Source of the DNA: Myxococcota bacterium
GTDB taxonomy: Bacteria > Myxococcota_C > UBA6777
Direction of reading: 5' to 3'
NCBI GenBank assembly: GCA_023150835.1
Contig: JAKLKB010000002.1
Coordinates: 1 to 64,000 of the forward strand
Length of the DNA: 64,000 nt
A model generated the notes under the pieces. That model worked only from the letters and a program-made list of their open reading frames with translations. It made no database searches and was not told where the DNA came from. Shown here in pieces: positions 36,378 through 52,244 of the stretch; the stretch's first letter is position 1; each line of letters starts with the position of its first letter. A program made the position numbers and the translations under genes.

Positions 36378-38027
36378 TCAAGAAGAAGCATCAGAAAGAG
36401 TGGAAAGGTGCGTGTGGGCATATTGTCGAAAAACCGAACGACTGGGCTTGATGCTGGGATGGGGAGGGAGAGCGGGCCAAGGCAAGAAATGATCAGGGAT
36501 CTTGAAACGAGCAAGACGAGAAGATAGAAATTCGCGCAAGGTTTTCTCGCACAAAGGTTGCGCATCGCGCATCTGCAAGAAGGCAACAGGTCGAGCGCCA
36601 TAGAGAGCATGAGGGATATCGACGACCAAAACGGACTCGACAGCGGGATGCTGTGTGAGATGCCATTCGATCTCTTCGGGCTGGATGTTTTCACCTCCAG
36701 AGATAAACATCGCGTCTTTGCGACCGAGGATGCGGAGAAAGCCGTTGTCGTCGATGCGACCCAGATCCCCCATCGCAAACCAGCCATCGGCATCAAAGGG
36801 GCATTGCAGCCCCTCTGGCGTGAGGTAGCCTCGAAAACGAGTTTCACCGCGAACCCAGATCTCGCCATCTTCGGCGAGACGAAGCGCACGATATGGAAGC
36901 AACAAGCCCGAAGAAGACCACGCCTCCAACCCATCGTTCGGGCGCGTGGTGGTGATCTGCGAAGCCATCTCTGTGGAGCCGTAGCTCGTAAAGATCCGAA
37001 GGCGCAAAGAGGCCGCCCGTTCGAGCAAAGCGTAGGGGATGGCACTTCCCCCCAACAAGATCGCTCGGGCCTGCTGAAGCTGCGGTAGGATCGAGGGTTC
37101 AGCATCAAGCAAGCGCAACAGTTGCGTAGGAACGAGAGAAAGATGCGTTGGTTGCATCGCTCGGATGGCTTCGTGCAAAGAAGAACGCGGCGAAGGGATC
37201 GCGACAGAAGCCCCCGCAAGAAACACGCGCATGATTAAACCGATGCCCGCGACGTGAAAGATCGGAAGGGACAACAACCAACGATCCTGCGGCTCGATCG
37301 GGATGTTTTGGTTTGAGCCGAGTGCGCTGTAGTAGTGGTTGGCGTACGAATGAAGTGCGGCTTTGGGTTCGCGGGTACTTCCCGAAGTAAAGATGATCGT
37401 GGCGTCCCGCTCAAGACCCTCTTTTGGGAAAGCAAACATCCAAGCAGGAGCACGATCGGCGTCTTCGGCTGTGGAGTGAGCTTCGGTTGTGGGGATCTTT
37501 TCGGCTCCAAGGATCTCTTCGGCTCTAAGGCTCTCTTCGGCTCTAAGGCTCTCTTCGGCTCTGGGGGTTTTGGGGTCATTGTTTTGGTGTTGTGGCTCTT
37601 GAGGGGGAGGCGGCAGAGAAGAAAGCGGGTGAACACAAAGCTCGGGATGTTGGGCTTTTTCAGCCAAGGCATCATCCACAAAGAGATGCTTTGCGGATAT
37701 CTTGCGGGCCATCGGGAAAAGCTGTTCTTGTGGGATGCGCGTGGAGAGCGGAGCGACGATGCAGCCTCGGCGCAGCAGGCCAAAAAAACAAGCCAGCGCA
37801 AAAGGCGAAGCCTCGGCCCAAAGCACGGCTCGCTCTCCTTCCAAAAGGCCGATCTGTTCGACTTTTTTGGCGATCGATTCGACCCAACGGGCCATCTGAG
37901 TGTAAGACCACCGTTGTTGGGGCGTGATCAATGCTGGGTCATGCGGCGTCCAGTCCATCGGCTGCGGCATGGATGCGGCAGAGAAAACATCTCTTAAAAA
38001 AAGAGAAGATGGAGGGAGATGCGTCAT
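36378..38027 (-). CDS. menE: o-Succinylbenzoate-CoA ligase with repeat insertion
   Basis: A 549-residue adenylate-forming ligase that activates OSB to OSB-CoA. Motifs: P-loop TIIFTSGSTREPKAALHS, FTSYGSTEMASQ, MGDLGRIDDNGFLRILGRKDAMFISGGENIQPEEIE, and a C-terminal SIKPSR with the candidate catalytic Lys. Residues of about 148-175 are an inserted RAEESLRAEESLRAEE repeat between domains A2 and A3, encoded by an 18-bp repeat. AGGTGA precedes the ATG. It is the last gene of the men group; 342 bases with B and A elements separate it from menC, so it may have its own promoter or need read-through. Confidence 0.9.
   Translation of the reverse strand: MTHLPPSSLFLRDVFSAASMPQPMDWTPHDPALITPQQRWSYTQMARWVESIAKKVEQIGLLEGERAVLWAEASPFALACFFGLLRRGCIVAPLSTRIPQEQLFPMARKISAKHLFVDDALAEKAQHPELCVHPLSSLPPPPQEPQHQNNDPKTPRAEESLRAEESLRAEEILGAEKIPTTEAHSTAEDADRAPAWMFAFPKEGLERDATIIFTSGSTREPKAALHSYANHYYSALGSNQNIPIEPQDRWLLSLPIFHVAGIGLIMRVFLAGASVAIPSPRSSLHEAIRAMQPTHLSLVPTQLLRLLDAEPSILPQLQQARAILLGGSAIPYALLERAASLRLRIFTSYGSTEMASQITTTRPNDGLEAWSSSGLLLPYRALRLAEDGEIWVRGETRFRGYLTPEGLQCPFDADGWFAMGDLGRIDDNGFLRILGRKDAMFISGGENIQPEEIEWHLTQHPAVESVLVVDIPHALYGARPVAFLQMRDAQPLCEKTLREFLSSRLARFKIPDHFLPWPALPPHPSIKPSRSVFRQYAHTHLSTLSDASS
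37497..37566 (-). repeat. 18-bp tandem repeat inside menE
   Basis: The plus-strand unit CTCTTCGGCTCTAAGG(CT) repeats about three and a half times, with a diverged first copy. It encodes RAEESL units. Period 18, frame preserved. Confidence 0.85.
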
Positions 38028-38034
38028 CCGCTCA

Positions 38035-38170
38035 CCTATTCATACGATCTCCGCGTAATGTATGATCGCATGATGTAGGGGCGGTTCGCGAACCGCCCTA
38101 TTCTCGGGCAGCCACAGGGGGCTGCCCCTACATTTTTACGATCACACACCCTGCGGATTTCGTATCACTC
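38035..38170. repeat. Element B between menC and menE
   Basis: Full copy. The left arm ATACGATCTCCGCGTAATGTATGATCG is followed by the GGGCGGTTCG/CGAACCGCCC palindrome (38079-38098), a GGGCAGCC/GGCTGCCC hairpin and the right arm TACGATCACACACCCTGCGG. Confidence 0.88.
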
Positions 38171-38210
38171 ATGCAACATCCGCCAATTTGACTCGACTCA
38201 GCGCGACGCA

Positions 38211-38352
38211 CTTGCAAAAAAAAGCCGTGTTCGTACACGCTCAAGCGACAGAGTCGTTGTTTTGGAAGACCTGCGATCTTTTCGCCAAACACGGGGTCAA
38301 GGGAGCCGCGCTCCCTTGTGGGGCGTGGGGCAAAGCCCCACAAACGCCATCG
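38211..38352 (+). repeat. Element A between menC and menE
   Basis: Plus-strand copy: GCCGTGTTCGTACACGCTCAAGCGACAG, ACACGGGGTCAAGGGAGCC, GCGCTCCCTTGTGGGG, then the GTGGGGCAAAGCCCCAC hairpin. Two hairpins, arms GGGAGC/GCTCCC and GGGGC/GCCCC, are clear here. Confidence 0.9.
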
Positions 38353-38369
38353 AACAAGCGACACCGCTC

Positions 38370-39623
38370 CTACTCACAACACGACGCAAAAGAAACGCTC
38401 GGCTCGGTAGGTACGAGGAGATTGGGGTGAGAGGTGATATCGAAGCAAGCGAGGTGGTTTGCGATGGAGGAGAGGTTGAGATGCCCGCCTTGAGACCAAG
38501 GAGGGAGGAGATCGGCGGCAAGAGCGCGGCGTGTATCGAGTCCTGCGGCACGATGCGGCAGGACAGAGGCAGCCCAAAGCGCGAGAAAAGACAGACCAAG
38601 CCCCGACTCAAAGGTGCTGCTAAAGACGGCGGTGCGTTGGTTCATTTGGCTCCACAGCAGCCAATCATCGGTCGGAAGGACCCCGCCAAGAACACTCGGT
38701 TTGAGAACGAGTGTTTTGGCGCAAGCAAGGCGGGGATCGTCACTTTTGGGGTGAAGTTGCGAAAGGCTTTCATCCAAAGCAACGGAAACGCCCGTCTCTT
38801 GGACGAGTTGAGGCAAGAGCAGCGGATTTTGCAGCGGTTCTTCGAGGTATTCGATCGGACAAGAGTGCAAAGCATCGAGAAAGCGGCGGGCTTGATCGAG
38901 CGTCCATGCACGATTCGGGTCGATGCGCAACGTAGCTTGTTTACCGAGCAGATCGTGTAAAGCGCGGACGCGCTTGATATCTTCGGCAAGTTCAGTGCGT
39001 CCGACTTTGAGTTTGAGATGCCGAACGCCTGTGTGCAAAGCGTCTGCGGCTTGTTTTTGCAAGGCATCCAAAGGACCCATCAACAGAACTTGGAGCGGAA
39101 GAGTCGGATGGATCGGTGTATACAGGTCGTGCGAGACGCGAGCAGTTCGGGAGTTTTTTTCGGTTGTGGCGTGTGTTTTGGGTGGACGACTCGGTTGTTT
39201 TGCGCGCAAGCAAAGGTGGGCGCGATAAGTCCAGAGCATCATATCGAGTCCAAAACGCGCAGAGGGCGGCAGATGGAGCGGTTCGAGATGGTGGTGAAAC
39301 GAAGTCATCGCACGCAAGGGCGGAGCGATCAGCTTGCGAGCAGAAGGAGGCACCCAACAGCGCGGATCGAGCAGTTCGTAAACAACTTCGAGCAACGCCA
39401 GCAACATCGGCTTTTGTCGCTGGAGGGTGCTGTAGATGGCGTCGAGCGATTCTTCGTGGAGACCGGGGAGCGGTGCGATCTCGCCGACGCCTTGGGTTCC
39501 ATCGCGATCGCGCAACACAAGCACCAGTCCCTCGCGTTGTTGAAGGCGGTGTGGGCCGATCTGAAGTGTTTCACGCAGAGGAAGAACATAACGGTGCAGA
39601 TCCAAGGAAAACAATTCAGCCAT
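38370..39623 (-). CDS. menC: o-Succinylbenzoate synthase
   Basis: A 417-residue enolase-superfamily dehydratase that converts SHCHC to OSB. The catalytic framework is intact: Lys in HLKLKVGR, metal ligands in LRIDPNRAW, IEYLEEPL and VALDESL, and the second-face Lys in LVLKPSVLGG. It is somewhat longer than typical MenC because of a loop at about 135-165 (PSRPPKTHATTEKNSRTARVS). AAGGATG precedes the ATG. It lies 80 bases downstream of menA in the same direction. Confidence 0.9.
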   Translation of the reverse strand: MAELFSLDLHRYVLPLRETLQIGPHRLQQREGLVLVLRDRDGTQGVGEIAPLPGLHEESLDAIYSTLQRQKPMLLALLEVVYELLDPRCWVPPSARKLIAPPLRAMTSFHHHLEPLHLPPSARFGLDMMLWTYRAHLCLRAKQPSRPPKTHATTEKNSRTARVSHDLYTPIHPTLPLQVLLMGPLDALQKQAADALHTGVRHLKLKVGRTELAEDIKRVRALHDLLGKQATLRIDPNRAWTLDQARRFLDALHSCPIEYLEEPLQNPLLLPQLVQETGVSVALDESLSQLHPKSDDPRLACAKTLVLKPSVLGGVLPTDDWLLWSQMNQRTAVFSSTFESGLGLSFLALWAASVLPHRAAGLDTRRALAADLLPPWSQGGHLNLSSIANHLACFDITSHPNLLVPTEPSVSFASCCE

Positions 39624-39703
39624 CGCGCATCCTTACGCATCAAAAAACGTGTCAACAGAAACCACAAGACACCAAGCGCCGATATCGCTTTGGGATGGGC
39701 TTT

Positions 39704-40591
39704 TTAAGAGAGGATCCACCCGACCGAAAACAGCACGCTGTACAATAAAAGCAGCTGGCCTGTTGTAGCAAGTGCTTGATTGAGGGCTTGGCCGTCATGC
39801 GCGGTCCAAACGACCCGCAACGCAGGAAAGCCAAACAAGAAGATCAGCGAGGCAGAAAGAGCGTAGTGATGGGCCTTTGTCAAGAAGACCAACCACACAG
39901 GCAACAGCGCAGGGATCAACAAACACAAGAGATATTCGACCCGAGCAAAGGTCGCCCCAAAACGCACCGCCAACGTGCGTTTCTTGACTTTGCGATCACC
40001 CTCGATATCGCGGAGATTGTTGACGGCCAACAAGCCCGTCGCGATCAAGCCCGGCCCAAGGCCCGCAAGCAACACCAACGGCGAAAGCGTTAGACGTTGG
40101 AGATAGTAGGTTCCTCCGACCGCAACAGGGCCAAAGAACACCACCACAAAAAGATCGCCAAGGCCCGTATAAGCTAAGGCAAACGGCCCGTAGGTGTAGA
40201 GGATTCCCGCAGCAACCGAGACCAGCCCAAGCACCACGATCGGCCAGCCTCCGCGCCAAACCAACGGGACACCCGACAAGATCGCCAACGCAAACACCCC
40301 GATGTAAGCGCGTTTCATGGTTTGGGGGGACACATAACCCGCTTGCGTGACGCGCACAGGCCCCAAACGATCGGCATCATCAGCCCCCTTTTTGAAGTCG
40401 TAATAGTCATTCGCAAGATTGGTTCCGATCTGGATCAGCAGCGCGCCAAGCAAACAAAAGAAAGCCATCACCAGATGAAAACTGCCGTCGCTGTAAGCCA
40501 TCGCCGATCCAATCAAGACAGGCGCGATCGCCGCGCCAAGCGTTTTCGGGCGAATCGCCATCAAAACGATCTGAGAGAGTGAAGGTGTCAT
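39704..40591 (-). CDS. menA: 1,4-Dihydroxy-2-naphthoate polyprenyltransferase
   Basis: A 295-residue UbiA-family membrane enzyme that attaches the polyprenyl tail to DHNA to make demethylmenaquinone. About nine hydrophobic segments are seen, with the Asp-rich motifs NLANDYYDFKKGADDADR and VNNLRDIEGDRKVKKRTLAVRFG. AIRPKTLGAAIAPVLIG at the N-terminus is typical of MenA. TAGGAAG lies before the ATG. The gap to menD is only 35 bases, so the two are cotranscribed. Confidence 0.93.
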   Translation of the reverse strand: MTPSLSQIVLMAIRPKTLGAAIAPVLIGSAMAYSDGSFHLVMAFFCLLGALLIQIGTNLANDYYDFKKGADDADRLGPVRVTQAGYVSPQTMKRAYIGVFALAILSGVPLVWRGGWPIVVLGLVSVAAGILYTYGPFALAYTGLGDLFVVVFFGPVAVGGTYYLQRLTLSPLVLLAGLGPGLIATGLLAVNNLRDIEGDRKVKKRTLAVRFGATFARVEYLLCLLIPALLPVWLVFLTKAHHYALSASLIFLFGFPALRVVWTAHDGQALNQALATTGQLLLLYSVLFSVGWILS

Positions 40592-40626
40592 GCGCTTCCT
40601 ACGGTGTGAAAGGGGTGAGCTGTTTC

Positions 40627-42444
40627 CTACGATGTGAACGGGGTGATCGTGTGTGCGTGCAGCGCCTGATAAAAGGCCATGTTTCGGTCAGTATGGGTGA
40701 AGACTTCGATCAATACGGGTTGAAGTGCGTGAGTGGCTTCTCGGTAAGTGTCGCGAAAGGCTGAGCGAGAAGTCACTTGAGCAGCGGAAATTCCGATGGA
40801 TTGGGCGATCGGAGCGATCGAGATATCGTGGGGCGTGGTAAAGCAACGCTGAAAGATATCTTCGAAGCGTGCGACAGGCAGAAAGCGGAAGATACCGCCG
40901 CCGTGATTGTTGAGGACAACGATCACCAACGGGATCCGGGATTGTTTGAGCAAGATCAAGGAGTTCAAGTCGTGGATCAAAGACAGATCACCGATCAACA
41001 ACGTCCCTTTGGTGCGGGAACCTGCCACAAAACCAAGCGCCGACGCAAGCAAACCATCGATCCCACTGGCTCCACGATTGGCGGCCAGCGGGACCGCGTG
41101 ACCGAAACCATCCGCAAATCGGTCAAGATCGCGGATCGGCATACTGTTGCCGACAAAAAGCGCATGTTCTTTGGGGATCAGTCGAGAGATATCGAAGGCG
41201 ATGGCTGGTTCGTGAAGATCGTCCAGATCGAGGGTTTCGCGAACGTGCCGAAGATACGATTGGTCGGCTTCTTGCCAACTGCGCAGCCATTCTTGCGAAC
41301 GCTCGGCGATATCCACCGAAAGCAACGCACAAAGAGACTCCGCAAAGGCCGAGGGATGGCAGGCAAGGCGTGTCTGGACTTGGTGGGTGGGATCGAGGCG
41401 TTCGGGATGTTCGTGAACCGCAACATACGGTGTATCGGGATGTTCTTCGAGATAAGACAAAAAGTGCTTTGCGACCAGCGGTCCGCCGAGATGCAAGATC
41501 AGATCAGGCTTGGAAGAAGCGCGCCATCGGGGATCACGCAACAGCCCGTCAAACGAAAGGATGCGTTGGGAGGGTTGCATCCCAAGACGCACACCTGAGC
41601 CGATATCCGCAAAAAGCGGCCATCCAAGACGCCCGGCCAATCGGAGGATCGGAGTTCTGTCCCACCAAACAGGCATACGCCCCAACACCAACACCCCACG
41701 AACCGCCCGCACCACCGAAGCAAACAGCGTGGGAGGCAACGCAGGAAGACCTTGTGCTTGAGCGTGAGCGTACATCGTCCAAGGCTGCGAATCTTTCCAC
41801 CATTGCGCCAAAGGCTCCGTATAATCGGGCGATATCGGCGATTCGACAGGAACCAGCGGCTCACGAAAGCGCCAATTGAGATGAACAGGCCCCGCAAAAG
41901 GCCCTGTGGCGCGGTGGAGAGCTTGGGCCAAAGTCGTCAACACAAACTGCGGTGCGATCGACTCGGTCGGACAAGGGATATCAAAGAACCAGCGGGCATG
42001 ATGACCGAACAAGTGGGTTTGTGGGATGGATTGATTGGCCCCGCATTGTTCGAGTTCGGGGGGACGATCTGCCGAACAGATCAACATCGGAAGATGATCC
42101 ACCGAAGCCTCGATTACTGCGGGGAGATAATTGGCGACGGCGGTTCCTGATGTGCAGATCAACAACGCAGGAAGTCCCGTAGCACGGGCATAACCAAGCG
42201 CATAAAACGCAGCGGCTCGCTCGTCATAACAGATCTGTAGCCGCGCCTTGGGATGGCGCGCAACAGCCGCCGTCAACGGCGTAGAGCGCGATCCCGGCGA
42301 GACGCAAAAAGTCTCGATGCCGTGTCGGATGGCTTCTTCTACAAAGATCGCGGCCCACAGGGCGTTGAGATTGGGGGCATCAGGTCGGTTTCGATCGAGG
42401 GCATCGGGTCGGTTTTGGTGGGGGGCATCGGATCGGGTGCGCAA
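40627..42444 (-). CDS. menD: SEPHCHC synthase (2-oxoglutarate/isochorismate condensing, ThDP-dependent)
   Basis: About 605 residues from a TTG start chosen because GGGAG lies eight bases upstream. The open frame continues to 42492. Motifs: FCVSPGSRSTPLTAAV, CYDERAAAFYALGYAR (catalytic Glu region), TSGTAVANYLPAVIEA, ADRPPELEQCGANQSIPQ and a C-terminal ThDP region IGDLSLIHDLNSL. The first about 25 residues are a DAxxxNRPDA repeat that overlaps the end of menF in another frame. Conserved MenD sequence begins only at LNALWAAIFVEEAIRHG, so the true start could also be a CTG near 42370. Confidence 0.9.
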   Translation of the reverse strand: MRTRSDAPHQNRPDALDRNRPDAPNLNALWAAIFVEEAIRHGIETFCVSPGSRSTPLTAAVARHPKARLQICYDERAAAFYALGYARATGLPALLICTSGTAVANYLPAVIEASVDHLPMLICSADRPPELEQCGANQSIPQTHLFGHHARWFFDIPCPTESIAPQFVLTTLAQALHRATGPFAGPVHLNWRFREPLVPVESPISPDYTEPLAQWWKDSQPWTMYAHAQAQGLPALPPTLFASVVRAVRGVLVLGRMPVWWDRTPILRLAGRLGWPLFADIGSGVRLGMQPSQRILSFDGLLRDPRWRASSKPDLILHLGGPLVAKHFLSYLEEHPDTPYVAVHEHPERLDPTHQVQTRLACHPSAFAESLCALLSVDIAERSQEWLRSWQEADQSYLRHVRETLDLDDLHEPAIAFDISRLIPKEHALFVGNSMPIRDLDRFADGFGHAVPLAANRGASGIDGLLASALGFVAGSRTKGTLLIGDLSLIHDLNSLILLKQSRIPLVIVVLNNHGGGIFRFLPVARFEDIFQRCFTTPHDISIAPIAQSIGISAAQVTSRSAFRDTYREATHALQPVLIEVFTHTDRNMAFYQALHAHTITPFTS

Positions 42445-44147
42445 TCGACAAACTCCCAAAATGTTTTCAGCTTTTGTTCTAATTCTTGCCATTCTGTTTC
42501 GGCATCTGAATCAGGAACAATCCCTGCGCCTGTGAACAACAACAACTGCTCTTGTGCCAACAACGCGGAACGGATCGCCACCGCGAACTCGGCCCCTTGC
42601 GCCCCCATCCATCCGACAGGGGCCGCATACCACCCTCGCCCAAAGCGTTCAAACTCCCGCAACAACGAAAGCGCCATCACAGAAGGTCGCCCCCCCACCG
42701 CAGGCGTCGGATGCAGCGCCCGAAGGATCGATGTATCGTCCACTTCTGCGTGCAAATGCCCTTGTATCGGCGTCCACAGATGTTGCACGTACTTGAGTTT
42801 TCGCAAGGCAGGAGCAGGGATCTCCGCAAGTGCATGACACAATAGGCCAAAACGCTCTCGCAAAGAACGGAGCACCAAAAGCTGTTCGTAGCGATCCTTG
42901 GGACTGGCGAGCAGCTCTTCTCCAAGCCGTTGATCCTGTGTGGGATCGCTTCGGCGAGGGCGAGTTCCTGCAAGGGCTTCGCTGAAAAGCAACTCGCCTT
43001 GGCGCGCATACAAACGCTCTGGCGAAGCCCCCAAAAACACCGTGTGACGGGTGGGTTGGAATGCAAAAACGTAAGAGTCCGCAGCTTGGGCGCGCAGGGC
43101 CGCCAGCAAAGCAAACGGAGCGTTGGAGTCAGACAAAACAACATCGCTTGTAGGCTCGCAAGCAGCGCAAGAGGCCGCCTCGTTGTGGAGGGGATGCGAA
43201 GCCTCGTTGTGAAGCGGATGCGATACCTCGTTGTGGAGGGGATGCGATGCCTCGTTGTGGAGGGGATGCGATGCCTCGTTGTGGAGGGGATGCGATGCCT
43301 CGTTGTGTTGGGATGGACATTGTGATCGCAGGCGGAGCGTTGTTTGGCGTGCAAGGACGATCTTTTCGAGGGAGCCTTGTGCGAAAGAGTCTTTGGCGCG
43401 TTTGATCGTGTCCTTCCAAAGAGGGAGGATGGGCGTATCTTGGCGCGATATCGCACGATACGCAGAAAAGGCAGGGGGAACACAAGAGCGCGGCGGAGAG
43501 AGCAGCCCCTCTTCGTCGATCAAACGGCGCTGCACAGCGATCTGTTTGATTCGGTCGGTGTCTGGAGCAAGAGCCAAGGCCAAAGCCAGCGAGTACTGGC
43601 CGCCTTCTTTGGTAAGCATCACACGCGGAAGCGTCCATTGGACGGGCGAAAAGGCGCTCCAAGCAGAGGGTAGCGGTCGTTCAAGATCAAAGGCTTGCCC
43701 GCCAAAAAATCGCAAGGTCGGAGGTGCATCGCAAAGGAAAGATCGCACTTTTTGTAAGACAGGTTCGGGCTGCTCGCCCGAAAGCTGCAACGCCACACCC
43801 AACCCCGCACAGATCAAAGAGCGTTCACGGTCAGACCAAAAGACCCGACAATCCGCGTCGTATGCACACAGCCATCCGATCAAGTCCAACGATGCGCTAT
43901 CTTCCACAGGACAGCAAAAAAACAACAGCATCTCGGCCTCTGTACGGGGCGGCTGACCAAGCTCCGCAAGCAGAGCCGAGGAAAGAGGCGAAGGGATCAA
44001 AGAGGGCATCTCTGCGCATTCGAGGGCTGAAAACGTTGCATGGAGGGCCAGATACGCATCCTCCAACGGGAGTGCTTGTTTCGAGACAGGCAACGACCAG
44101 AGGATCGGCTTGGAGGGTGTAGGGGTAGTTGCCCAAGAGGCTCTCAT
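42339..44147 (-). CDS. menF: Isochorismate synthase with repeat insertion and extended tail
   Basis: A 602-residue chorismate-utilising enzyme, far longer than the usual 430-460. It converts chorismate to isochorismate, the first committed step. Conserved regions: KIVLARQTTL, FLGASPERLYARQGELLFSEALAGTRPR, HPTPAVGGRP, GWYAAPVGWMGAQGAEFAVAIRSAL and GAGIVPDSDAETEWQELEQKLKTFW. Extra length comes from an SHPLHNEA tandem insertion at about residues 279-325 and a C-terminal DPMPPTKTDPMP tail overlapping menD. The ATG is preceded by AGCCGA only, so the start is less certain. Confidence 0.92.
   Translation of the reverse strand: MRASWATTPTPSKPILWSLPVSKQALPLEDAYLALHATFSALECAEMPSLIPSPLSSALLAELGQPPRTEAEMLLFFCCPVEDSASLDLIGWLCAYDADCRVFWSDRERSLICAGLGVALQLSGEQPEPVLQKVRSFLCDAPPTLRFFGGQAFDLERPLPSAWSAFSPVQWTLPRVMLTKEGGQYSLALALALAPDTDRIKQIAVQRRLIDEEGLLSPPRSCVPPAFSAYRAISRQDTPILPLWKDTIKRAKDSFAQGSLEKIVLARQTTLRLRSQCPSQHNEASHPLHNEASHPLHNEASHPLHNEVSHPLHNEASHPLHNEAASCAACEPTSDVVLSDSNAPFALLAALRAQAADSYVFAFQPTRHTVFLGASPERLYARQGELLFSEALAGTRPRRSDPTQDQRLGEELLASPKDRYEQLLVLRSLRERFGLLCHALAEIPAPALRKLKYVQHLWTPIQGHLHAEVDDTSILRALHPTPAVGGRPSVMALSLLREFERFGRGWYAAPVGWMGAQGAEFAVAIRSALLAQEQLLLFTGAGIVPDSDAETEWQELEQKLKTFWEFVDCAPDPMPPTKTDPMPSIETDLMPPISTPCGPRSL
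42373..42440 (-). repeat. 24-bp tandem repeat in the menF/menD overlap
   Basis: The plus-strand unit GGGGGCATC(A/G)GGTCGGTTT begins at 42373, 42397 and 42421. On the minus strand it encodes TDPMP-type units of MenF in one frame and NRPDA-type units of MenD in another. Confidence 0.92.
43177..43317 (-). repeat. 24-bp tandem repeat inside menF, about 5.8 copies
   Basis: The plus-strand unit GCCTCGTTGTGGAGGGGATG(CGAT) begins at 43177, 43201, 43225, 43249 and 43273, with a partial at 43297. It encodes SHPLHNEA repeats on the minus strand. Confidence 0.95.
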
Positions 44148-44190
44148 CGTTCGGCTCCATCGGGTCTTTCGTGCGCTTGGTCAAAAAACG

Positions 44191-44934
44191 CTAGGCAGGG
44201 TGGGCGTTGGGCTTGTCCCCTTGGTAGAGGGTGGCGATCCCAAAGGTCAGGGGATGGGCTTCGACTTGTGTAAAGCCAGCCTCCCGCATCATCTGACAAA
44301 ATGCCTCACCATAAGGAAAAGCCTCGACGCTTTGGTTGAGATAGCTGTATGCGTAGCGATCGCCTGACACCAACGCGCCGATAAACGGCAAGATCCGACG
44401 AAAATACAACAGATACAGGCTGCGCATGACCCGCAAGCGCGGGAGAGAGAATTCGAGGATGATCGCACGTCCATTGGGTCGCAAGACACGGTACATCTCT
44501 CGCAAAGAAGCAGAGACATCGCTGACGTTGCGGATGCCAAAAGCGATCGTCACGACATCAAAGGATCCGTCTTTGACAGGGACTTGTGTCGCATCGCCCG
44601 TTTCGAGGGCGGTGGGCTGGGGAAGTTGAAGCGATTGAAGCTTTTGCCGCCCAATGGCCAACATCCCTTCGGAAAGATCCATCCCAAGCGCCCGTTGGAT
44701 GCGGGGTTCGGCTTGACAAAGCGTAATCAACAGATCGCCTGTTCCTGTCGCCATATCGAGCAATTCGAGGGGACGCTCTTTGGGCAGGTGGCGTGCAACG
44801 CGCCGCCGCCAGCGCTTGTCGATCCCCATAGACAAGACGCGATTGAGCGGATCGTAGGTTTGTGCGATCCGATCGAACATCTGCCAAGTTCGATCCTTTT
44901 CTTGTAGATTCACACCTGCTTTTTGATCAGACAT
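44191..44934 (-). CDS. menG: Demethylmenaquinone methyltransferase
   Basis: A 247-residue SAM-dependent methyltransferase (UbiE/MenG family) that catalyses the last step to menaquinone. Motifs: QMFDRIAQTYDPLNRVLSMGIDKRWRR, SAM-binding LLDMATGTGDLL, FDVVTIAFGIRNVSD and YRVLRPNGRAIILEFS. The ATG at 44934 has GGAG eight bases upstream; an ATG at 44949 has no such site. It lies 43 bases upstream of menF within the operon. Confidence 0.93.
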   Translation of the reverse strand: MSDQKAGVNLQEKDRTWQMFDRIAQTYDPLNRVLSMGIDKRWRRRVARHLPKERPLELLDMATGTGDLLITLCQAEPRIQRALGMDLSEGMLAIGRQKLQSLQLPQPTALETGDATQVPVKDGSFDVVTIAFGIRNVSDVSASLREMYRVLRPNGRAIILEFSLPRLRVMRSLYLLYFRRILPFIGALVSGDRYAYSYLNQSVEAFPYGEAFCQMMREAGFTQVEAHPLTFGIATLYQGDKPNAHPA

Positions 44935-45024
44935 ACACACATACTCCATGAGACAACAACGGATGAGGAGGGGGCTTACGCGATGGGATGGTTTTTGTGG
45001 GGCGTTGCCGGGGTTCAGCGGTCA

Positions 45025-45882
45025 TCAAAGAGAGCGATCAAGGGCAGCAGCGATGCGGCGGATCTGGCCCATCATCGAAGCAAAGCGCTCGAAGTCTAAA
45101 CTTTGGCGGCCATCGGAGAGGGCTTGTTCGGGGCGGGGGTGAACTTCGATCAACAGCCCGTCGGCCCCCGCAGCGATCGCGGCACGAGCCACAGCCGCGA
45201 CATACTCGGACTTTCCTGTGCCGTGGCTTGGGTCGGCAAAGACGGGCAGGTGGCTGAGGCGTTTCAGGGCAGGGATCGCATTGATATCAAAAGTGTTTCG
45301 GGTTTCTTGCTCAAAAGTACGGATGCCGCGTTCACACAGGATGACTTGTGTATTTCCTTCGAGGAGGATGTATTCGGCGGAATACAGGAGTTCTTCGAGG
45401 GTGCTTGACATGCCGCGTTTGAGCAAGATCGGTTTTTGTGAGCGCGCAGCGGCCCGCAACAGCGGGAAGTTTTGCATACTGCGCGTGCCGATCTGCAAGA
45501 TATCGGCGCACTCTGCGACCATGCCGACCATCGCAGGGTCCATCACTTCGGTGACAACGGCCAATCCAGTAGATTCACGCGCCAAGGCCAGCCACTCCAA
45601 GCCTTGTTGTTGGCTACCTTGGAAGCTGTAAGGCGAAGTACGCGGCTTAAAGGCCCCTCCGCGCAGACCAAAGGCCCCTTGTGCCTTGACAAAAGACGCG
45701 ATCTCAAGGATCTGCTCGCGGCTTTCGACCGCACAAGGCCCTGCGATCACGCGCACTTGCTGCCCTCCAAGCAAACCTTGCGGGAGTTTTACCTCCGTAT
45801 CGGCTTGCCCGATCCCTCGCCGCGCAAGGGGGCGCGCAGGGGCGGAAGCTCCCAGTGGCTCTTGATCGACTTGCTTACCCAA
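45025..45882 (-). CDS. aroF: 3-Deoxy-7-phosphoheptulonate (DAHP) synthase, AroA-I-beta/KDO8P-like type
   Basis: A 285-residue enzyme making DAHP from PEP and erythrose-4-phosphate, entry to the shikimate pathway that supplies chorismate to MenF. Motifs: [55 protein letters not shown] and [15 protein letters not shown]. It lacks an N-terminal regulatory ferredoxin-like domain; about 50 residues of basic/Pro-rich leader precede the core. A TTG start at 45882 is chosen for its AAAGGAG at eight bases; the frame stays open to 45930. A precursor gene inside the men operon fits its supply role. Confidence 0.9.
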
Positions 45883-46037
45883 CGTATTCGCTCCTTTACT
45901 GAGAGAGAAAGAACAGGCTCTCCAATACACCCCTTGAGATGCGAGGCTTGCAAAAAGGTGGCGGCCCCTGATGCCAAAGAAGCTCTATCCAAGGGACGGT
46001 AGAGATCAAAAGCAGCGAGGCTCGGTAAAAAAGCGTC

Positions 46038-46934
46038 TCAATAATGCCAAGGGAACTTGGTGTAATCTTGCTTGCGCTTTTCCAAGAAAGCATCGCGCCC
46101 TTCGACGGCTTCTTCGGTTGCGTACGCAAGCCGGGTGGCCTCGCCCGCAAACAGTTGTTGCCCGACGATGCCTTCGTCGGGGAGGTTGAAGGCGTATTTG
46201 AGCATACGGATCGCGGTGGGACTTTTGGTGGTGATCTCTTGGGCCCAATCAAGGGCAAAGCGTTCGAGATCAGCGTGATCGACCACAGCGTTGACCATGC
46301 CCATCGCAGCGGCCTCTTCGGCGCTGTAATTTTTTCCGACAAAAAAGATCTCACGAGCTTTCTTTTGGCCGACTTGACGCGCAAGCAAAGCCGAGCCGTA
46401 GCCGCCGTCGAAACTGGCGACATCCGCGTCGGTTTGTTTGAAGATCGCGTGCTGCCGACTGGCGATGGTGAGATCACAAACCACGTGCAGACTGTGTCCT
46501 CCACCCACCGCCCAGCCCGGAACCACCGCGATCACGACTTTGGGCATAAAACGGATCAGGCGCTGCACTTCGAGGATATGAAGACGTCCAAGCCTCCCGA
46601 TATCCGGCTGATGTGCAGCATCGCCTTCGTATTTGTAGCCGTCTTTGCCGCGAATCCGCTGATCTCCGCCCGAGCAAAAGGCCCATCCACCGTCTTTGGG
46701 GGAGGGACCGTTCCCTGTCAACAACACACAACCCACATCCGAGGACATTCGGGCATGATCGAGCGCTCGGTAGAGTTCATCGACGGTGTGTGGACGAAAG
46801 GCATTGCGGACTTCGGGGCGATCAAAAGCGATGCGAACCGTCCCTTGATCAAGCGCCCGATGGTAGGTGATATCGGTTAGATCAAGCCCTTCGACAGGGC
46901 GCCAGCGTTGGGCCTCAAACAATTCGGATACCAT
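46038..46934 (-). CDS. menB: 1,4-Dihydroxy-2-naphthoyl-CoA synthase
   Basis: A 298-residue crotonase-family enzyme that closes the naphthoate ring from OSB-CoA. Motifs: RIAFDRPEVRNAFRPHTVDEL, FCSGGDQRIRGKDGY, VPGWAVGGGHSLHVVCDLTIAS (oxyanion hole), TDADVASFDGGYG and FFVGKNYSAEEA. The GGDQR and DADVxSFDxGYG strings are diagnostic of MenB. It is the first gene of the men operon; the 155-base gap to aroF shows nothing notable. Its upstream region is shared with the divergent arsR gene. Confidence 0.95.
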   Translation of the reverse strand: MVSELFEAQRWRPVEGLDLTDITYHRALDQGTVRIAFDRPEVRNAFRPHTVDELYRALDHARMSSDVGCVLLTGNGPSPKDGGWAFCSGGDQRIRGKDGYKYEGDAAHQPDIGRLGRLHILEVQRLIRFMPKVVIAVVPGWAVGGGHSLHVVCDLTIASRQHAIFKQTDADVASFDGGYGSALLARQVGQKKAREIFFVGKNYSAEEAAAMGMVNAVVDHADLERFALDWAQEITTKSPTAIRMLKYAFNLPDEGIVGQQLFAGEATRLAYATEEAVEGRDAFLEKRKQDYTKFPWHY

Positions 46935-47115
46935 AAGCCTTTGTCACCTTTCCTTAAAGAGAAGACGGACTCGTTGGGTTTGTTCCGTGTGGTGGGGCGA
47001 TCTCGCCAGAAAGCAGCAGAACCGCGCCACCACCAAAAAACCCGAAGCCATCTAGCGCATCGTAGGAGACTTGTCCACACCTTTTCATTTTTACGCCTCC
47101 GTCTGGACTTTGCAT

Positions 47116-47137
47116 ATATCTTCATCTATGAACATAT
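47116..47137. promoter_or_regulatory. 22-bp palindrome, candidate ArsR-type operator
   Basis: Arms ATATxTTCAT and ATGAAxATAT around a two-base centre; only three symmetric pairs mismatch. The TTCAT/ATGAA core flanked by AT matches the general form of ArsR/SmtB-family operators. It is in the intergenic region between menB (start 46934) and the ArsR gene (start 47271). Binding is inferred. Confidence 0.6.
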
Positions 47138-47160
47138 CGAAAGAAAGAATGGGTTTGCGT

Positions 47161-47242
47161 GCGCAGCGAAAACGGGCCGGGTTGGTTTGAGAGTGCAGCG
47201 CAGCGAAAACGGGCCGGGTTTGAGAGTGCAGCGCAGCGAAAA
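47161..47242 (+). repeat. Direct repeats in the arsR leader
   Basis: GCGCAGCGAAAACGGGCCGG occurs at 47161 and 47198, with a partial third copy (GCGCAGCGAAAA) at 47231. Spacings are 37 and 33 bases. They lie between the candidate operator and the arsR start. Confidence 0.85.
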
Positions 47243-47270
47243 TGCGCCCAGATCGAGAGGGACAAAGGAA

Positions 47271-47633
47271 ATGCCCCACACAGTAGCAGCGGCAGAATTA
47301 GCGCGGTTGTTGAGTTTGTTGTCACACCCCCATCGCATCCAGATCGTGGAAGAACTGCGGCTTGGGGAGCAAGACGTCAACCACCTCCAACAAGCCTTGG
47401 GGGTAAGTCACTCGCGGGTGTCGCAACATCTTGCGCAGATGCGGGCAGCGCGTGTGGTCTCGGAACGAAGGGAAGGTCGGCATGTCTTTTACCACTTGAA
47501 GCAACCCGATATCGCGCATTGGCTGCTTGAGGGGTTGGGATTTTTGGAGGCGGAGTTACGCGAAGCCGAGGGGCTGCGCGATGCCGTAGAAAAAGCGCGC
47601 CACCTGTGGAGCGAAGAACCTGACGAAGGGTGA
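47271..47633 (+). CDS. ArsR/SmtB-family transcriptional regulator, cysteine-free
   Basis: A 120-residue winged-helix repressor-type protein. The helix-turn-helix spans LLSHPHRIQIVEELRLGEQDVNHLQQALGVSHSRVSQHLAQMRAARVV, followed by the wing SERREGRHVFYHL and a helical, Glu/Arg-rich C-terminus. There are no cysteines, so thiol-metal or persulfide sensing of the usual kind is excluded; His residues are frequent. AGAGGGA lies about ten bases before the ATG; the frame is open from 46908 through low-complexity repeats. It is divergent from the men operon, which it may control. Confidence 0.85.
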   Translation: MPHTVAAAELARLLSLLSHPHRIQIVEELRLGEQDVNHLQQALGVSHSRVSQHLAQMRAARVVSERREGRHVFYHLKQPDIAHWLLEGLGFLEAELREAEGLRDAVEKARHLWSEEPDEG

Positions 47634-47922
47634 CGGTGGTGTGCGTTTGATGGGCGGATCGGGGAGTAAAAAGAAGAAAAATCAGCGGTAGCTTCGGGCG
47701 TTAAGAAGGATTTGTGGGGCGGGGGCTGTGCCTCGTGTGCGATCTTGTAGATACTGCGGCGAGAGGAGGCGGACAGCCGAATCTGCCACAAAGAAAGGAG
47801 GAGACGCAGGGGGTTTGATGCGAGAAAGGGCCGTAAAAAGCTCTGAACCTGCTCGCAAACAGAGAGAGGGCGCGCTTTGGGTGCGCAACAAGCAAGACAG
47901 AAAGCTCCCTGCGCACAGCACG

Positions 47923-49815
47923 ATGCCGACGAACAAGTTGACCACAAAAGATCTTCTACGGGCCGATTACTTCGGCAGTTTGAGCGAAGAAAAATGCGCC
48001 TATTTGTTGCCGTTGTTTACACCGCGCCTGTTTTCACGGGGAGAGATCTTGTTTGAGCAAGGCGATGAACGCAAAGAGATGTACTTGATCGCACAGGGAG
48101 ATATCGAGCTGATCGATTCGTCGGTGGGATGGAGCCGCAAATTCACGGTTTGCGGCCCGGGGACGTTGCTTGGCGACACATTGATCTTGGAAGACGAAGC
48201 GCCGTATCGGACGACAGGGCGGGCGGTATCCGACGGGATGATCGGTGTTTTGCCCAAAGAAAAACTGAGCAAGATTCGGGAAGAAAACCTGTCCTTGTTT
48301 ACGGAGTTGGTGCTATCCGTGAGCAAAGCGATCGCAGATCGGATCATGCGGTCAGGGCGAGGTGATCAAGGCCGAGGCGCGGTATACGGTTTTAGTGCCC
48401 CCCGCAAAGAGCACGATCTCTTGGGCGAGCGCGATGTGCCTTCCTCGGCGTTGTGGGGGATTCAGACGCTGCGTGCGGTTGAAAACTTCCCGATCTTGGG
48501 TGTTCGCTTGGAAGCCTATCCCGAGCTGATCGAAGCACTCGCCGAGATCAAACGCGCTTGCACGATCGCCAACGTGCAGCTTGGCGATCTCGACGAAAAA
48601 CGGGGAAATGCGATCATCGAAGCTTGCGAAGAACTCTGCAAAGGCTTGTGGCATGGGCATTTTGTGGTGGATATGATCCAAGGCGGCGCAGGCACCAGCA
48701 CCAACATGAACGCCAACGAAGTCATCGCCAACCGCGCCTTGGAACTGCTCGGCCATGACCGCGCAGAATACGACATCTTGCATCCCAACAACCACGTCAA
48801 TATGAGCCAATCAACCAACGACGTCTATCCATCGGCAATTCGGATCGCCTTGCTTAAAGCGATCCGCAAAACCATCGAAGAGGCGGGGCGTTTGGTCGGA
48901 GCCTTTGAAGCCAAAGGCAGAGAGTTTTCAGGGATCATCAAGATGGGGCGGACACAACTTCAAGACGCCGTACCGATGAGCTTGGGGCAAGAGTTCCAAG
49001 CGTGGGGACGCACCTTGCGAGAAGGAAGCCGACGCATCGAACAAGCACTCGATAGTCTCTTGGAATTGAACCTCGGCGGAACAGCCATTGGGACGGGGAT
49101 CAACGCCGATCCAGAGTTTGCTCGCATCGCCATCCAAGAACTCTCCAAACATCTGGGGATGTCTTTCGTCCAAGCCGAAGACCTGATCGAAGCCACCCAA
49201 GATACCAGCAGTTTTGTCGAACTATCGGGCGTTTTGAAGATGTTTGCCGTACGCCTCTCCAAGATCTGCAACGACCTGCGTTTGCTGTCGAGTGGACCGC
49301 GTTGTGGCCTCAATGAGATCAATCTTCCGCCCGTACAACCGGGATCTTCGATCATGCCGGGAAAAGTCAACCCCGTGATCCCCGAAGTGGTCAACCAAGT
49401 GGCCTTCCAGATCGTCGGCCTCGATACCGCCGTGGCTCTCGCCGCAGAAGGCGGTCAACTCGAACTAAACGTCTTCGAGCCGCTGATCGCGTTCAACCTT
49501 TTTACTTCCATCCATATGCTGCACAACGCGATGCTGACCCTACGCATCCGTTGCATCGAAGGGATCACCGCCAACGAAGAAGTCTGCCGTCGCATGGTCT
49601 ACAATTCGATCGGCGTCGTCACCGCACTCGGCCCGAGTCTCGGCTACGAACGCGCCTCAGAAGTCGCCAAAGAAGCGTTGGTGACGGGCCGCCCTGTCTA
49701 CGAGATCGTGCTTGAACACGGATATCTCACCCGCGAGCAACTCGATATCCTCCTCGACCCCCACAACATGATCCGCCCCATCAAACGCCAACAAAGTCCC
49801 CCCGTTCTCGGATGA
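47923..49815 (+). CDS. aspA: Aspartate ammonia-lyase with N-terminal cyclic-nucleotide-binding domain
   Basis: About 630 residues. Residues 10-130 form a cNMP-binding-like beta barrel (FSRGEILFEQGDERKEMYLIAQGDIEL, LLGDTLILEDEAPYRTTGRAV), with the phosphate-cassette Glu replaced by Asp but its Arg kept. From about 155 follows a complete aspartase/fumarase-superfamily enzyme: HPNNHVNMSQSTNDVYPSA, GRTQLQDAVPMSLGQEF, EATQDTSSFVELSGVLK and the signature GSSIMPGKVNPV with the catalytic Ser. It converts aspartate to fumarate and ammonia. An ATG at 47818 is an alternative start. It lies just downstream of arsR and may share its transcript. Confidence 0.9.
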   Translation: MPTNKLTTKDLLRADYFGSLSEEKCAYLLPLFTPRLFSRGEILFEQGDERKEMYLIAQGDIELIDSSVGWSRKFTVCGPGTLLGDTLILEDEAPYRTTGRAVSDGMIGVLPKEKLSKIREENLSLFTELVLSVSKAIADRIMRSGRGDQGRGAVYGFSAPRKEHDLLGERDVPSSALWGIQTLRAVENFPILGVRLEAYPELIEALAEIKRACTIANVQLGDLDEKRGNAIIEACEELCKGLWHGHFVVDMIQGGAGTSTNMNANEVIANRALELLGHDRAEYDILHPNNHVNMSQSTNDVYPSAIRIALLKAIRKTIEEAGRLVGAFEAKGREFSGIIKMGRTQLQDAVPMSLGQEFQAWGRTLREGSRRIEQALDSLLELNLGGTAIGTGINADPEFARIAIQELSKHLGMSFVQAEDLIEATQDTSSFVELSGVLKMFAVRLSKICNDLRLLSSGPRCGLNEINLPPVQPGSSIMPGKVNPVIPEVVNQVAFQIVGLDTAVALAAEGGQLELNVFEPLIAFNLFTSIHMLHNAMLTLRIRCIEGITANEEVCRRMVYNSIGVVTALGPSLGYERASEVAKEALVTGRPVYEIVLEHGYLTREQLDILLDPHNMIRPIKRQQSPPVLG

Positions 49816-49834: not shown

Positions 49835-50191
49835 ACGAACTCCGAACGATGTACACAGCAAAGGATCACACGCAGACGCCCTATTATCGGGCAGCCCCCT
49901 GTGGCACTTGGACCAACTCATGCCGTTCGTTTGCGATCATCGTTCCTATCATATCCGTCAAAAGCGTATCCATAAGCGTCGATGCGATTTGTTGTAAACG
50001 CCCTGTGATTGGGCAGCCACAGGGGGCACTTGGTCCAGCTAATTCCATTCGTTTGTGAGCATCGTTCCTATCATATCCGTCAAAAGCGTATCCATAAGCG
50101 TCGATGCGATTTGTTGTAAACGCCCTATTATCGGGCAGCCACAGGGGGCTGCCCCTACATTTTTACGATCACACAACGGGCGGATCTCGTC
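49835..50191 (+). repeat. Element B array with 123-bp tandem unit
   Basis: Begins 20 bases after aspA. A B-like segment, then two copies (49903 and 50026) of the same unit seen at 15079, then a complete B core and right arm ending at the acyl-CoA dehydrogenase stop. No gene is supported. Confidence 0.9.
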
Positions 50192-51623: not shown

Positions 51624-52244
51624 CTAACCTTGGGAAGAGGCGGCCTGTTCTTGGGCGGCACGTTTTTTCCGACGCGATGCACCGCCGCATCCACCGCCGC
51701 CACCGCCACATCCGCAGCCACCCCCGCCGCCACCGCAGCCACCCTGCGCATGACTGTGTTCGTGGTCATGATCATGCGAATGGCCGTGGTGAGGGCCGTG
51801 ATCGTGCGAGTGACCATGATCGTGGTGATGGCCGTAATCGTGTGCGTGGCTGTGGTGATGGCTGTGATCGTGCGAATGGCTGTGATCGTGCGAGTGACCA
51901 TGATCGTGTGAGTGGCCGTGATCGGCAAGCGGAAGATCTTTGTAATAGGCTTCGGCTTTTTGGTAGAGATTCCAGAGCGCATCAAAGGTGTACATACCGA
52001 GGCTGTGCCCATCGGACCAATACATCTTGATGGCGTAACGTCCGATCGGCTCCCAACGCAGGAGACGAATAAAGTCGATCTGATCGGTTGTGGGCCGTAC
52101 GTTGGGGCCGTGTCCACCGCGACAGAGAGCGCAGGGACATTGACGCCGCAGATGCAAAAGCTCGTAAGTGCAGCATTCTTTGTTGTTCCATTGGATCGTC
52201 AGATAGCGATCATTGAAGGAGATGGTTTCGGGAGAGGGTAACAT
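51624..52244 (-). CDS. DUF971 protein with His/Asp-rich and Cys/Gly-rich tail
   Basis: A 206-residue protein. Residues 1-100 are a DUF971/GBBH-type domain (ECCTYELLHLRRQCPCALCRGG, LLRWEPIGRYAIKMYWSDGHSLGMYTFDALW). From about 108 to 166 the chain is almost all His, Asp, Ser and Gly (HDHGHSHDH-type), then GGCGG/GCGCGG-type Cys-Gly repeats and a basic end. Such tails bind Ni, Zn or Cu in SlyD- and HypB-like proteins. DUF971 also occurs fused to Mrp/ApbC Fe-S carriers. A metal chaperone or store is the likely role. AGAGGG precedes the ATG. Confidence 0.82.
   Translation of the reverse strand: MLPSPETISFNDRYLTIQWNNKECCTYELLHLRRQCPCALCRGGHGPNVRPTTDQIDFIRLLRWEPIGRYAIKMYWSDGHSLGMYTFDALWNLYQKAEAYYKDLPLADHGHSHDHGHSHDHSHSHDHSHHHSHAHDYGHHHDHGHSHDHGPHHGHSHDHDHEHSHAQGGCGGGGGGCGCGGGGGGCGGASRRKKRAAQEQAASSQG

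Follow-up and report, generated by a model that had tools for sequence, protein, structure and literature searches.

A palindrome between the divergent menB and arsR genes of a Myxococcota genome (G000) is very likely, on our prediction, the operator of the adjacent ArsR. We consider it reasonably probable that this protein is a local autorepressor belonging to a non-metal ArsR subfamily linked to SulP transporters and carbonic anhydrase, and that it also controls the downstream gene for a cNMP-binding aspartase (cNMP-AspA); the men operon may be targeted as well. From the computed dyad, its conservation, its match in sister genera, the neighbouring genes and the missing known ligand sets, we infer binding, repression and the kind of signal. 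"The window" below means the whole stretch of DNA that was analysed, 64,000 nucleotides in length.

A rare palindrome separates menB and arsR

The dyad, ATATCTTCATCTATGAACATAT, can be written as ATATCTTCAT-CT-ATGAACATAT; its two 10-bp arms are complementary at nine of ten positions around a 2-bp centre, and its inner layout is TTCA-N4-TGAA (Table 1). The first-pass annotation had claimed a palindrome between the divergent genes, and it is present exactly where it was placed. It lies within the 336-bp menB-arsR spacer, at a distance of 133 bp from the ATG of arsR and 181 bp from that of menB, and because this spacer is 52% GC, the AT-rich palindrome stands out. Shuffled 64-kb sequence is expected to contain 0.01 matches on average, compared with the one found. 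When the 7.56-Mb genome was searched with up to three mismatches allowed, the dyad was the sole match, and the same pattern read backwards had none. An equally good dyad with a 2-bp centre was seen in 0.5% of shuffled intergenic regions, or in 5.5% if a centre of 0 to 8 bp was allowed. These genome-wide statements come from pattern searches; the matrix scan described below covered the 64-kb window.

Table 1. Positions of the candidate operator and neighbouring features in the window
Feature	Position	Strand	Remarks
menE	36378-38027	-	men operon (operon apart from menB, 36378-45930)
menC	38370-39623	-	men operon
menA	39704-40591	-	men operon
menD	40627-42492	-	men operon
menF	42339-44147	-	men operon
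menG/ubiE	44191-44949	-	men operon
aroF (DAHP synthase)	45025-45930	-	men operon, profile matches
menB	46038-46934	-	heads the divergent men operon; true MenB, TIGR01929 and NF006186 above cut-off
Invariant run, 43 bp	47099-47141	none	unchanged in both species of the genus; spans the dyad and the weak rightward promoter-like pair
Candidate operator dyad	47116-47137	none	half-site TGAACATAT at 47129-47137
Imperfect tandem repeat, 33-37 bp	47161-47259	none	in the dyad-arsR interval; missing in G001
arsR	47271-47633	+	regulator of 120 aa with ArsR/SmtB fold, no Cys; above cut-off for PF01022 and NF033788
cNMP-aspA	47728-49815	+	cNMP-binding domain fused N-terminally to full aspartate ammonia-lyase (AspA); profile matches; next gene 3' of arsR

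Palindromes of this composition arise easily in AT-rich spacers, and one could envision that the dyad is a product of chance or functions at the RNA level as a terminator, hairpin or Rfam element. The GC content of the spacer and the uniqueness of the dyad in the genome argue against this explanation. Candidate terminators and RNA elements at the dyad were rejected as well: no terminator and no Rfam match was found, and the folding was ordinary (z 0.42 and -0.49). We regard this explanation as very improbable.

Two promoter-like hexamer pairs span the dyad. The rightward pair consists of TGGACT (47104-47109) and TATGAA (47127-47132) separated by 17 bp and is weak, with 8 of 12 consensus matches; the leftward pair has an equal score (8/12).

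The regulator lacks the residues of metal and persulfide sensors

By profile and by its winged-helix fold with flanking helices, the product of arsR is a member of the ArsR/SmtB superfamily, the identity proposed at first pass. It matched HTH_5 (PF01022) with 38.5 bits (cut-off 22) and HTH_metalloreg (NF033788) with 81.3 bits (cut-off 55), and the NCBIfam BigR model was the second-best match with 58 bits (cut-off 155). The AlphaFold2 model (pLDDT 80.8) is a winged HTH with a long C-terminal helix (residues 79-114), and the best Foldseek matches were all ArsR-family proteins, the top PDB entries being SmtB, SqrR, CzrA, NolR and BigR, with PagR also a structural match. The ATG at 47271 (stop codon 47631-47633) is supported as the start because the orthologues likewise begin with MPxR; a longer TTG ORF from 46908 lacks such support. 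A homodimer of such a protein would be expected to bind a dyad near its own promoter, and a conserved dyad is present there.

ArsR-family proteins are best known as sensors of metals and sulfur. The protein contains ten His and, as the first-pass annotation had pointed out, no Cys; none of the five proteins from the window's family contains Cys, and 28 of the 34 orthologues are Cys-free. The α5 ligands D104, H106, H117 and E120 of SmtB align with Q, D, F and A, and the α3N Cys is missing, so that neither the α5 His/Asp or α3N Cys set of the SmtB, CzrA, ArsR and CadC metal sensors nor the conserved Cys pair of the BigR/SqrR persulfide sensors was found. The doubt cast earlier on a thiol-metal signal was thus well placed, as residue content excludes Cys-based signalling and the SmtB ligands are missing too. 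The "His-rich" sensing suggested at the same time is borne out by composition but not by conservation: only H19 and H53, the latter in the recognition helix, persist across the 34 orthologues, among which no conserved Cys or His set was found. A His-metal site was rejected on this ground. With the α5 ligands replaced, no Cys and few conserved His, a metal or thiol signal appears unlikely, and a signal of another kind is likely.

Comparison with known systems points the same way. The metal sensors of the SmtB/CzrA type resemble the window ArsR in fold, size, HTH_5 and HTH_metalloreg profiles and an AT-rich TTCA/TGAA dyad near their own promoter, but they carry the ligands that are substituted here, no metal transporter or metallothionein gene adjoins the window arsR, and their half-sites are arranged as TGAA-N6-TTCA, in contrast to the TTCA-N4-TGAA of the window. 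BigR, SqrR and SoxR, the persulfide repressors, share the fold (and, for BigR, the second-best profile match) but require two reactive Cys. NolR, PagR and other ArsR proteins without a metal site are alike in having the fold without the canonical site; they differ in their neighbours, the subfamily of the window ArsR being tied to SulP and carbonic anhydrase.

The dyad is kept in a second species of the genus

The comparison within the genus involves two MAGs: G000, the window genome (93% complete), and G001, the MAG KLAP109 (86% complete), which is labelled Myxococcota and represents another species. In G001, menB, arsR and aspA are all kept in place, and the invariant 43-bp stretch containing the dyad is the longest unchanged run in the spacer (permutation P 0.0008 at the local identity of 79%). 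Large indels lie on both sides, with 181 gap columns and 79% identity in the aligned columns. Because the tandem repeat is absent in G001, the dyad is 70 bp from arsR there; it is 295 bp from menB, so that in both species arsR is the closer gene. The expectation that the dyad be conserved wherever the gene pair is conserved holds in G001, the only other species with the pair. The arsR-aspA spacer is also nearly alike in G000 and G001 (97% over the region compared, coding DNA included), and the conservation of the dyad by itself is therefore only suggestive.

The arsR-cNMP-aspA adjacency is likewise kept in G001, and no terminator was found between the two genes in the window, which are probably co-transcribed. 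Several other features of the neighbourhood were observed. MenF carries five to six octapeptide repeats of the HNEASHPL type (24-bp unit, 43177-43307) before its chorismate-binding core, and an 18-bp tandem repeat in menE (37481-37566) encodes RAEESL-type repeats. A 122-bp tandem repeat of 2.2 copies (49876-50149) separates cNMP-aspA from an acyl-CoA dehydrogenase-like gene. An ORF on the minus strand (51624-52244) encodes a long His-rich tail and then a Gly/Cys-rich one, which gives its product a metal-binding look.

Candidate operators upstream of SulP genes in sister genera match the dyad

Three genomes of the same family, G002, G003 and G004, each carry an arsR orthologue (52-61% identity), none of which is near menB. 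In two of the three the orthologue adjoins a SulP transporter gene: SulP is followed by arsR in G003, and the two genes are convergent in G004. In G002 the SulP gene belonging to that clade lies on a different contig from arsR, and none was found in G000 and G001, assemblies that are 93% and 86% complete. An open scan for dyads upstream of SulP identified ACATGTTCAAAAGTTTGAACATGT (also written ACATGTTCAAAagTTTGAACATGT) in G003 and ATATGTGCAAACATTTGAACATAT (also written ATATGTGCAAAcaTTTGAACATAT) in G004, the right half of the latter being the window half-site TGAACATAT. For the pattern used, the G003 site was the second best in its genome and the G004 site was the best.

A matrix built from only these two SulP-upstream dyads was run across the 64-kb window with inner gaps of 0 to 12. 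The window dyad came first with a score of 27.7, compared with 12.2 for the next independent site and maxima of 12.1-20.4 in 25 simulated runs. We think that this result is the strongest evidence that the dyad would serve as the operator of this ArsR; together with retention in the second species, it makes the ArsR-shaped operator claimed at first pass very probable. The inner spacing is N4 in the window and N6 at the G003 and G004 sites, and this 2-bp change would rotate the half-sites against each other. In G002, no clear dyad was found upstream of arsR or SulP (best score 16).

Related boxes occur at other loci. In G000, G001 and G004, an ABC-exporter operon for type I secretion has a TGTTCAAATRTTCAAATAT-type box directly 3' of its promoter-like hexamers (L117:5016-5037, L118:7295-7316 and L170 at about 3740), and G003 has a variant of the box (L162, about 4528). 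Similar boxes were found near genes for a CBS-domain protein, a PQ-loop protein and a sigma factor. A three-mismatch site at G000:C48:2895, also in G001:C145, was discounted because it is inside an 831-aa ORF. The type I secretion boxes may be further ArsR targets or sites of another regulator. One could therefore argue that the dyad itself is bound by another protein (a second ArsR, or a TetR, MarR or CRP-like regulator) and that its place beside arsR is incidental, since the boxes at all of these genes share the TTCAAA/TGAACATAT form. Against this argument, the SulP genes that adjoin the arsR orthologue are among the top matches in G003 and G004, no site of this kind was found close to the genome's two other PF01022 proteins, and the half-site order of TTCA-N4-TGAA is the reverse of the CRP/FNR arrangement. 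We find an incidental position distinctly improbable.

A Cys-free subfamily linked to SulP and carbonic anhydrase

Orthologues in the Sphingomonadales scored 116-186 bits, versus 71 or less for other ArsR proteins, and the window ArsR is 37-61% identical to subfamily members outside its genus. By similarity it falls within the SulP/carbonic-anhydrase-linked ArsR subfamily as defined here; the members are also recognized by an adjoining SulP or carbonic anhydrase gene or both, and in the window the neighbours are instead menB and cNMP-aspA. Every first copy examined in the Sphingomonadales heads an operon of arsR, β-carbonic anhydrase and SulP, in that order, and several have a CATCTGCATATATTTGCAGRTATG-type dyad shortly 5' of arsR; second copies are mostly convergent to SulP. 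The substrate profiles for sulP, DauA and BicA all scored under cut-off against SulP. In a wider sample of 398 Pseudomonadota genomes, the only subfamily members came from two Sphingomonadales genomes that had been identified before, and the 111 records of plasmid-borne relatives were all partial and below 60% identity. In the open literature that was searched, we found nothing on point concerning ArsR with SulP or carbonic anhydrase.

Is the men operon a target?

The first-pass annotation had proposed that ArsR may switch menaquinone synthesis. In its full form, this model holds that ArsR at the dyad acts mainly on the divergent men operon, tying menaquinone synthesis to the ArsR signal, possibly in a fumarate-respiration module that includes AspA. 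The reaction of AspA yields fumarate, whose reduction is fed by menaquinol, which would fit such a module. The divergent layout, with a single dyad between arsR and menB in both species, and the leftward promoter-like pair that spans this dyad also favour the model. However, the dyad is nearer to arsR in both species, and arsR is away from menB in G002, G003 and G004, the adjacency having been seen only in the two species of one genus. The men operon (menB-aroF-menG/ubiE-menF-menD-menA-menC-menE) has the same order in G001 and G004, and in G002 from menB to menA, within which the examined stretch ends. In G002 and G004 the operon is kept with aroB divergent and arsR absent beside it, and the dyad was absent, the best matrix scores across the whole men locus being 4.6 and 4.9. 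A search of the open literature found no report of ArsR control of men. As a side observation, aroF resides within the men operon in G001, G002 and G004 as well, and in the latter two menB has aroB as its divergent neighbour.

The arsR-men link, judged from these gene orders, is a genus-level juxtaposition. Since weak hexamer pairs with the same score point in either direction across the dyad, repression of men is possible but is not indicated over autorepression. What stands of the earlier proposal is that control is possible, with pair and dyad kept in two species; a dedicated link is weakened by the sister genera. We judge a switch acting mainly on men to be somewhat unlikely.

Discussion

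According to the autorepressor model that we favour, an ArsR homodimer would bind the two TGAACATAT-type half-sites, which lie over a rightward promoter, and so shut off arsR, and probably cNMP-aspA downstream of it as well. The promoter of the divergent men operon would be within reach, and its co-repression is a tentative addition, less expected than not. The protein probably responds to a metabolite or ion connected with SulP-linked transport, such as bicarbonate/CO2, pH or a C4-dicarboxylate, rather than to a metal or persulfide. Several points speak against this model: the N4 versus N6 spacing, the lack of a clear dyad in G002, the weak bidirectional hexamers, the restriction of the genus comparison to two MAGs, and the similar half-sites upstream of the type I secretion operon, which raise the possibility that the motif is shared with another regulator.

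A more far-reaching hypothesis is that a Cys-free, metal-independent ArsR with ancestral SulP/carbonic-anhydrase targets was rewired in one genus, where it would switch menaquinone synthesis and the cNMP-regulated aspartase together and, through a shortened N4 operator, place fumarate respiration under a signal from inorganic carbon or a C4-dicarboxylate. We consider this decidedly unlikely as it stands. The shift of the regulator gene, between related genera, from beside a transporter to a respiratory-quinone locus is a testable case of regulatory rewiring. The definition of an ArsR subfamily that lacks metal- and sulfur-sensing residues but has candidate operators and a conserved partner in the genome (SulP, with carbonic anhydrase in the Sphingomonadales) makes the signal directly testable.
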